From NCBI GenBank assembly GCA_031315865.1, contig JALDRJ010000002.1:1338001-1402000 (forward strand): DNA of 64,000 nt, read 5' to 3'. The DNA is from Nitrospirales bacterium. GTDB lineage: Bacteria; Nitrospirota; Nitrospiria; Nitrospirales; UBA8639. Below the pieces are notes generated by a model. That model was not told the DNA's origin. It searched no databases and was given only the letters and a program-made list of their open reading frames with translations. The position numbers and the translations under genes were made by a program. Shown here one piece after another: positions 40,949-46,966 of the stretch (positions are counted from its first letter, which is position 1; the number at the start of each line of letters is the position of its first letter).

Positions 40949-42997
40949 GTGAATCGATCTTTTGTTGTGACTCAAGGCGTTCTTCTGCTTTGCTGTATCG
41001 TCTTCGCTGCCGTATTTCCTTATCATGGGACTGTCGCTGCTGAGACGAATATGAACGAAGCGGCACAAGATAGCATGCCTTCTGATGATCTTACGTAACT
41101 CTCACTTGAAGAGCTCATGAATGTAGAAGTCACGACGGTATCCAAGAAACCTCAACAGCTTTCACAAGCACAAGCCGCGATTTATGTATTATCGGGCGAA
41201 GAGCTTCGTCGTATGGGAATCACGAACATTCCAGATGCTCTTCGTTTGGTTCCCGGGATTCAAGTGGCAAGCATCGATTCTAATAAATGGGCGGTAACCG
41301 TCAGGGGATTTAATGATCGTTTTGCGAATAAATTATTGGTGCTGATCGATGGACGGAGCGTGTATACACCCTTGTTTGCCGGGGTCTATTGGGAGGCGCA
41401 AATGGTTCCGTTGGCGGATATCGATCGCATTGAGATCATTCGAGGTCCTGGAGGGACGCTCTGGGGAGCTAATGCTGTGAATGGTGTCATAAATATCATG
41501 ACGAAGCGTTCAGATGAGACGCAAGGAGCGCTGGCCTCCGTCGTGATCGGTAATGAGGAGCGAGGCTTTGGAACGCTTCGTTACGGTGGGAAAATCGGAG
41601 ATGATTTCTCATACCGGGTGTACGGGCAATTTCGGAGTCGTGACACCGGGTTTCAGCAGATGGGGGCACATGATGATTGGCAATTAGGCCAAGGTGGAAT
41701 CCGAACAGATTGGGACCTCAATTCCAAGGACTCCCTGACCATACAAGGGGATTATTACCGAGGAGATGCTGGCCAGCAGATCACGACTCCTGTGTCGCCC
41801 GATGCCGGACCCATGGCTCCAGCGGCGGTGACGACATTCGATGAAGACGTGAAGCTTCGAGGTGGTAATGCTCTTGTACGCTGGCGACGAACGATTTCGA
41901 ATAATGAAGTGTTCATGGTTCAATCCTACTACGACCATGTGTTTCGCGAAGAGGCCTCACTGTATGAAGACCGCCACATCGTCGATCTGGAAGTGCAGCA
42001 TCAATTTCCGTTGTTGGCCCACCATGATACCGTGTGGGGGTTGGGTTATCGGTTAACCTATGACAATACTCGCTCCAATGAACTGTTTCGGCTTTCGCCG
42101 TCGAACCGTACGGTCAACCTGTTTAGTGGATTTCTTCAAGACGAGATGAAATTTTTCGATGACGCGCTGACAGTGACTGTCGGTTCGAAATTTGAACATA
42201 ACGCGTTTTCAGGGTTTGAATACCAGCCAAATATCCGGATTTCTTGGATGCCCGAACCGAACCATACCTTGTGGGCGGCGGTCTCGCGGGCTGTCCGGAC
42301 ACCGGCGCGCGGAGAACATGATGTCCGGCTGCGGGTTGTGCCCACGCCAGCCACGGCTCCCGTGACTGTGGCGATTTCCGGCAATGACCAGATGCAAGCC
42401 GAAAATCTCCTCGCCTTTGAACTCGGCTATCGTACCCATCCCCATTCGACATTGAACGTGGATATCGCAGGATTTGTGAATCACTACGACGATCTTCGGA
42501 CGTTTGACGCCATTTCTCCTCCGCCAACCATCACCATTCCGTTTTCCAATAGAATGCATGGAAATACCTATGGGGTCGAGGTTCTGGCGCAATGGCAGGC
42601 GCTTGATGCCTGGCGACTGCAAGCGACCTATACGTTCCTCGCGATGGACTTGGAATTGGAACATGGAAGTGTCAGTAGTGAAAAGTTACGTGAAGATGCC
42701 AGCCCTCATCATCAAGCGACCCTGTGGTCTCGCATGAACTTGCCTTGGAATTTAGAGTTGGATGGGGATATTCGATATGTCGGAGATATCAGTGTGACAG
42801 GCGCTCCCGTCAGTCATTATTTTTCTGCGGATGTCCGGTTGGGATGGCGCCCGACGCCAGATTGGGAGTTTTCAATCGTGGGACGGGACTTGCTGGATAA
42901 TCGTCATGCTGAATTTTTGCCGACGTTTTTGGCCACCCAAGCCACCGAAGTGCAACGGAGTGTTTTCTTCAGAGCCACCTGGCGGTTGAATCTCTAG
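40949..42997 (+). pseudogene. TonB-dependent receptor interrupted by one in-frame TAA
   Basis: The first part (GTG 40949, AAGG site upstream) encodes a signal peptide and runs to a TAA at 41096-41098. The same frame then continues directly with LSLEELMNVEVTTVSKKPQ, the usual beginning of a receptor plug, to TAA 42995-42997. The plug (about 120 residues, with AIYVLSGEEL, VPGIQVASIDSN, RGFNDRFANKLLVLIDGRSVYTP, RGPGGTLWGANAVNGVINI) and the 22-strand barrel look intact. Downstream translation from ATG 41117 would lack the signal peptide. Either a recent nonsense mutation or a base-call error removed the function; readthrough is possible. The ligand is unknown. Confidence 0.85.
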
Positions 42998-43205
42998 CAC
43001 GTCCTTCCTGGAAACGATCAACATCTCCAACTCTGATATTCCGTTGGCCTAGTGGCGCTCCATTGCCTTTCACGGCTTCTCGCGTTGTTTGTCTTCCCTC
43101 CGTATTGTGCAAAGTTGACCAGCTCGTGTCTCATTTGAGACATTGTAGCCCTGAGTCTGCCGAGACTGATTTATATCCAGAACGGGGAAAATGGAGGGTC
43201 TACAT

Positions 43206-43799
43206 ATGAGGTATCACGCGTTACTGTGGGGAATAATCCTGACCGTGTTGGCGGGTGGAAGTTCGACAGGGTATTCGGAGAATCCATCTCACTCACTCGC
43301 AAAAGACGTCGTGGCAGCCGAACAGGTTGCAGAATTTATCCACGCCATTCTTGATGCAGATCGGACGCTTTACACGACTCATGTAGTACAACGGATGCAG
43401 GAAAACAATGTGGTCAAGGCAGAAGAATCATGGAAGAAAGAGACTGCGCTTCCGTTACCAGCACAGATGTTGACCCTTTCTGGATTGCACGTAAAGGGTA
43501 AGGGAATGGGATTGGAGTATCGGCTGATTAGTCTTTGGCCAATTTATGAAAAAAACCGGCCAGCTACCTGGTTTGAACGAACGGGACTGGAGGCGATTGA
43601 AGGAGATCCGAGCAAGCCATTTACGGGTGTCATAAAAAAAGACGGACGTCGTTACTTTACCGCGATCTATGCCGATACGGCTATTTCGTCCTCATGCGTG
43701 AATTGTCACAACGCTCATCCTCTGAGCCCAAAGAAAAATTATAAGCTCAACGATGTGATGGGTGGGATGGCCATTTCTTTTCCTTTGTCAGGTTTTTAG
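43206..43799 (+). CDS. Exported DUF3365 (Tll0287-like) c-type haem protein
   Basis: A 197-residue exported protein: signal peptide (about residues 1-22), then a helical/PAS-like DUF3365 body, and a single haem-binding CVNCH motif near the C-terminus (SSCVNCHNAHP). Members are periplasmic haem sensors or redox proteins, often fused to kinases. I chose ATG 43206 because GGAGGG lies six bases before it; an earlier in-frame ATG at 43191 has a poorer site. It lies 208 bases after the broken receptor and converges with the Sel1 gene. Lack of a fused kinase leaves its partner unknown. Confidence 0.85.
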   Translation: MRYHALLWGIILTVLAGGSSTGYSENPSHSLAKDVVAAEQVAEFIHAILDADRTLYTTHVVQRMQENNVVKAEESWKKETALPLPAQMLTLSGLHVKGKGMGLEYRLISLWPIYEKNRPATWFERTGLEAIEGDPSKPFTGVIKKDGRRYFTAIYADTAISSSCVNCHNAHPLSPKKNYKLNDVMGGMAISFPLSGF

Positions 43800-45796: not shown

Positions 45797-46966
45797 ATGA
45801 CGAAACCACTTCCTGTGCATGCCGAAGTTGCACTTAAGGTCGTTGAGGCTTGTGCGCATCAACCTCCCGCAGTGCATCCGCTTCCGGTCTCTCTTGTCCC
45901 CGATTTGCGAAAAGTCGGGAGTCATCCGGATAATTGGTATCCGCTCGCACGTTCAAAGGATCTCAAAAAAGGTCAAACATTAGGACGTTCTTTCGCCGGC
46001 GATCCTATCGTATTGGTCAGGACCGAAAGCGATCAGGTGTATGCTCTTGAAGATCGATGCGCACACCGGCAAGTTCCCCTCCATCACGGTGTTGTTCATG
46101 GTGAACATTTACAATGTGGATATCATTGTTGGACGTTCGACCGAACAGGGAGTTGTGTCGGAGTTCCATATTTATCGAAGGGCCAGGCGCGTCCCAAAGG
46201 CGTAAGGAGCTATCCTTGCCGCGAAGCGTATGGATTGATCTTTGTCTTTCCCGGAAATATCGAAAAACTAACGGACACGGTCTTTCCCGAAGTTTCGTTG
46301 GCAGATGACCAGAAATACAAGACACGGTTCCTTAACCGTCGAGTCAACTGTCATTACTCGTTCATGCATGAAAATCTCATGGACATGAACCACCAGTTTT
46401 TGCATCGTCGGCTGATGGGTGGCATTAGGACGACGTGCCTAGAACTCCGAGAGCGGGATCATGTCGTTGAGGTCGATTACACGTTCTCCAGGGTCAAGGG
46501 CTCACAACCGCTTGGGGAAAAACTGATCTTAGGGAACCCGCAACATGTTCAGGCAGGACCCGAACATGATCTGATGACCATCTGCACCGACTATCCTTAT
46601 CAAACCCTGAAGTTTTGGACGGCCGGGAGTACTGAACCTGCGTTAAATCTTTGGAACGTGTATGTTCCGATCGATCGTGAACAATGCCAGAATCATACTT
46701 TCGGGCTGATGATGATCCGAAAGCCCTCGTTCCCCGGTTTAATCCACCTGCTATGGCCATGTATCGTGTGGTTTACCGAGAGGATCTTTGCCGAGGATCG
46801 TTGGATCGTCGAGGAAGAACAAAAGGCTTTCAATCGGCAAGGAGCAGATTGGAATCAAGAAGTCTTTCCCGTCATTGAACGATTGCGGGCGTTACTCAGA
46901 CGAGAGGGTGTGGTCTTACAGGGGTGTGCGTCTGATACGGAACGCTTCAGGACTTCGTCCTATTGA
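45797..46966 (+). CDS. Rieske [2Fe-2S] non-haem iron oxygenase
   Basis: The 389-residue protein has the Rieske cluster ligands C88/H90 (RCAHR) and C107/H110 (CGYHCW), and downstream the mononuclear iron site with H199 and H203 (DMNHQFLH). Such alpha-type subunits, e.g. phenylpropionate dioxygenase-like, hydroxylate aromatic, sterol or lipid substrates with NADH via a reductase. No reductase or ferredoxin gene is nearby, so it is an orphan. Downstream a hydrophobic segment (FPGLIHLLWPCIVWF, about residues 313-327) hints at membrane contact. Its TGA overlaps the convergent response-regulator gene by seven bases. Confidence 0.9.
   Translation: MTKPLPVHAEVALKVVEACAHQPPAVHPLPVSLVPDLRKVGSHPDNWYPLARSKDLKKGQTLGRSFAGDPIVLVRTESDQVYALEDRCAHRQVPLHHGVVHGEHLQCGYHCWTFDRTGSCVGVPYLSKGQARPKGVRSYPCREAYGLIFVFPGNIEKLTDTVFPEVSLADDQKYKTRFLNRRVNCHYSFMHENLMDMNHQFLHRRLMGGIRTTCLELRERDHVVEVDYTFSRVKGSQPLGEKLILGNPQHVQAGPEHDLMTICTDYPYQTLKFWTAGSTEPALNLWNVYVPIDREQCQNHTFGLMMIRKPSFPGLIHLLWPCIVWFTERIFAEDRWIVEEEQKAFNRQGADWNQEVFPVIERLRALLRREGVVLQGCASDTERFRTSSY

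Follow-up and report, generated by a model that had tools for sequence, protein, structure and literature searches.

A single in-frame TAA between the signal peptide and plug domain of a TOL_0244-family TonB-dependent receptor gene: probably a young nonsense allele, possibly a one-base assembly error

In a 64,000-nucleotide stretch of the genome of a Nitrospirales bacterium (hereafter, the window), the gene for a TonB-dependent outer-membrane receptor of the TOL_0244 family is interrupted at codon 50 by an in-frame TAA, which we regard as probably a very recent nonsense mutation that turned the gene into a young pseudogene. Alternatively, a single base may have been wrongly substituted in the assembly, in which case the gene itself is intact and encodes an ordinary receptor; we consider this possible, but clearly the less probable of the two. 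The most likely explanations are an inactivating mutation of the ordinary kind or one wrong base in the assembly, and we found no sign of special decoding at the TAA. The bacterium is assigned to UBA8639, the marine lineage IV family (PMC12342949).

The broken reading frame occupies positions 40949-42997 of the window on the forward strand. Its 5' part (40949-41095, 49 codons) starts at a GTG preceded by a Shine-Dalgarno-like AAGGTAGG, encodes a signal peptide and the beginning of the mature N-terminus, ends in ...PSDDLT, and is collinear with the N-termini of relatives. By eye, this segment resembles a signal peptide, with a basic start, a hydrophobic core, and a cleavage-like site (TVAA/ET). 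The ochre codon (TAA, 41096-41098) intervenes, such that signal peptide and plug do not lie in one continuous open frame, and the same frame then resumes with LSLEELMNVEVTTVSKKPQ... and runs through 632 open codons (41099-42994) encoding the TonB plug domain and a complete beta-barrel, up to the normal stop codon (42995-42997). Consistent with the initial annotation, which had described the GTG 40949 frame (...SDDLT), its TAA, and its same-frame continuation into the start of the plug, and had called everything downstream intact, plug and barrel are both complete and no second lesion was seen in the 632 codons after the TAA. Scans for promoters and terminators gave no matches above chance level.

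Both sides of the TAA belong to one family profile. More specifically, the part after the TAA scored 677.9 bits against NF053590 (TOL_0244 family), above the curated cut-off of 645, and contained PF07715 (TonB plug, 76.1 bits) followed by PF00593 (TonB-dependent beta-barrel, 111.3 bits). In the genome profile search, the NF053590 match crossed the TAA, reaching 681 bits; the match began at profile position 1 and included the TAA as one internal stop. As the residues flanking the TAA (DLT and LSLEELM) form the family's conserved junction, which is uninterrupted in relatives, the juxtaposition across the TAA is not a matter of chance. Judging from these matches, the gene is a member of the TOL_0244 family by descent that, as read, would fail as an expressed receptor. 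TOL_0244 itself, from Thalassolituus oleivorans, is upregulated sevenfold on the n-C28 alkane (PMC6304351). Downstream of the receptor gene lie genes for a Rieske/VanA_C oxygenase (45797-46966) and a Tll0287-like protein (43191-43799); in view of the link between TOL_0244 and alkanes, it is conceivable that the receptor and these downstream genes share a substrate.

Among the relatives examined, the stop is private to this gene copy. A sense codon occupies the equivalent position in all of them, namely ~40 same-phylum family members and 80 named loci spread over many phyla, none of which has a stop there; a premature stop lacking from functional relatives is what is expected of a nonsense pseudogene. 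Glu, Asp and Gln predominate at this position across relatives. Same-phylum members most often have Glu before LSLEELM; within the genus the residue is Gln or His, with Thr in one of the two paralogs of the same genome, and the 80 named loci carry Glu, Asp, Gln, Ala, Lys, Ser, Asn, Gly or Thr there. Because so many residues are tolerated at this site among relatives, no parent codon can be assigned with certainty. Several candidates are a single substitution away from TAA, and this proximity to codons that relatives use also speaks for a wrong base in the assembly. Close orthologs of the receptor, as would serve for dN/dS, were not found; the nearest sequences, from gammaproteobacterial metagenome-assembled genomes (MAGs), are 53-54% identical and form a fully supported clade with it, which suggests that the gene may have been acquired by horizontal transfer.

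To assess constraint, we made a leave-one-out comparison of 117 family members, counting for each protein its departures from positions that are near-invariant in the others. The window receptor deviates at 1 of 85 such positions (family median, 2). In contrast, the family copy of Nitrospira sp. UBA2083, which bears one TAG in mid-barrel (G357:C7:23500-27500), deviates at 12 of 87 conserved positions, by which measure it is clearly a decaying pseudogene. This difference indicates that constraint on the window gene would have lasted until very recently, or persists. Further lesions or relaxed constraint past the TAA, which are expected of old pseudogenes only, were not observed, and a single deviation among 85 positions is compatible only with a very young pseudogene or an artefact. 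Likewise, since ~3.8% of random substitutions in the receptor gene would create a stop (transitions weighted up), the lack of a second lesion sets a limit to how many substitutions can have followed the event. Of the options raised in the initial annotation, recent inactivation is therefore the best supported, given a well-conserved and intact body without a second lesion and relatives without a stop at the site. These observations serve the assembly-error explanation as well: one wrong base accounts equally well for the lack of a second lesion, and leaves a body as conserved as that of functional relatives. Mutation and assembly error both predict exactly the picture observed.

The initial annotation had also offered readthrough or recoding, whereby the TAA would be read through or otherwise recoded to yield full receptor at a low or regulated level. 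In keeping with this, both sides of the TAA are intact in frame, the signal peptide has a plausible start, and a C after TAA does not make for the strongest termination context. No relative, however, has a stop conserved at the same site, as would be found for programmed readthrough; conserved readthrough is thereby excluded, and a strain-specific form is without support. No suppressor tRNA, and no UUA, CUA or UCA anticodon, was present among the 45 tRNA genes that the Rfam tRNA model detected, all of which lie within stretches read with ARAGORN (contig C1, which opens with a long stretch of N, had no Rfam match). Moreover, TAA is a normal stop in this genome: in the 1.66 Mb sampled, it terminates 188 of 460 long frames, and in 35 of these the tetranucleotide is TAAC, as at the present site. 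Recoding is unlikely given the missing suppressor tRNA and the many other long frames that TAA ends. We found no paper on TonB-receptor nonsense codons with readthrough, and to our knowledge no regulatory TAA readthrough is known in bacteria. With a stop that is not conserved, no suppressor tRNA, and TAA as a normal stop, this part of the initial annotation is unsupported, and we judge readthrough or recoding very improbable. Least probable of all the readings we weighed is an ochre codon that is leaky in this lineage only and sits between signal peptide and plug, with regulatory readthrough holding a costly receptor at trace level.

Initiation downstream of the TAA fares no better. The first ATG (41117-41119) lies seven codons 3' of the TAA and could serve for reinitiation, in which case the 49-codon frame would be a separate leader peptide and the product a functional cytoplasmic or differently exported protein. 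Against this, the 49-codon frame shares the reading frame of the body and aligns collinearly with the N-termini of relatives, and the ribosome site of the ATG is weak at best (CTTGAAGAGCTC ATG). Lacking a signal peptide, the barrel of a TonB receptor cannot reach the outer membrane, and the earlier remark that a start at 41117 would yield a receptor without an export signal was right. We therefore rate a separate leader peptide as no more probable than readthrough.

Several features of the genome bear on the choice between mutation and assembly error. The assembly is good overall, as judged from its completeness (98.15%; 3.78 Mb in two contigs) and from the 3.77-Mb length of the contig that holds the window, which argues against an error, as do the neighbouring genes, which were intact where scanned. 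Should this be a long-read assembly, errors would moreover be mostly indels rather than substitutions. A hexamer scan for same-frame splits in a 1.66-Mb sample of the genome returned 56 candidates, nearly all of which resemble, by eye, adjacent genes that each have a start codon. They included one further clear split, a Mutator-family transposase gene (G000:C2:3285681; PF00872, 3285180-3286421, minus strand) divided by a single in-frame TGA, with profile positions 18-239 before the TGA and 245-351 after it; a second base error would account for this split just as well. The receptor family is also represented by a plug domain at G000:C2:1758073 (1450-1899 of the stretch G000:C2:1756573-1759971), with no recognisable barrel after it in any frame of the same strand; this may be either a decayed paralog or a plug-only protein. 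The decay of family copies elsewhere (this plug-only remnant and the UBA2083 copy), together with the split transposase, makes us lean towards mutation.

If the assembly is correct at this base, codon 50 would have become TAA very recently, and ribosomes would make a 49-residue signal-peptide fragment but presumably no exported receptor. Such a loss would probably be tolerated, as the genome retains two intact paralogs of the receptor family (G000:C2:769801 and 3546596; 45-47% identity) as well as other TonB receptors; more distant ones and proteins with a TonB C-terminal domain are present. This would be receptor turnover on a small scale, the strain having just lost one TonB receptor among several. 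For annotation, caution is warranted, because the output of gene callers here will be a receptor of 626 residues that lacks a signal peptide.

Taken as a whole, the case is an ordinary one: a well-preserved receptor gene with either a young nonsense mutation or a single-base error. It resembles TOL_0244-family receptors (NF053590) in its full-length match over the cut-off, its complete plug and barrel, and its DLT-LSLEELM junction, and differs from them in the in-frame TAA that separates signal peptide from plug. The UBA2083 copy likewise has one internal stop, but that copy is decaying, with its many conserved-site deviations, whereas the window copy is not. There is also a close likeness to TonB-dependent receptor genes that have recently become nonsense pseudogenes in genomes with multiple receptors; with these the window gene shares a single stop, an intact remainder, and the presence of paralogs.
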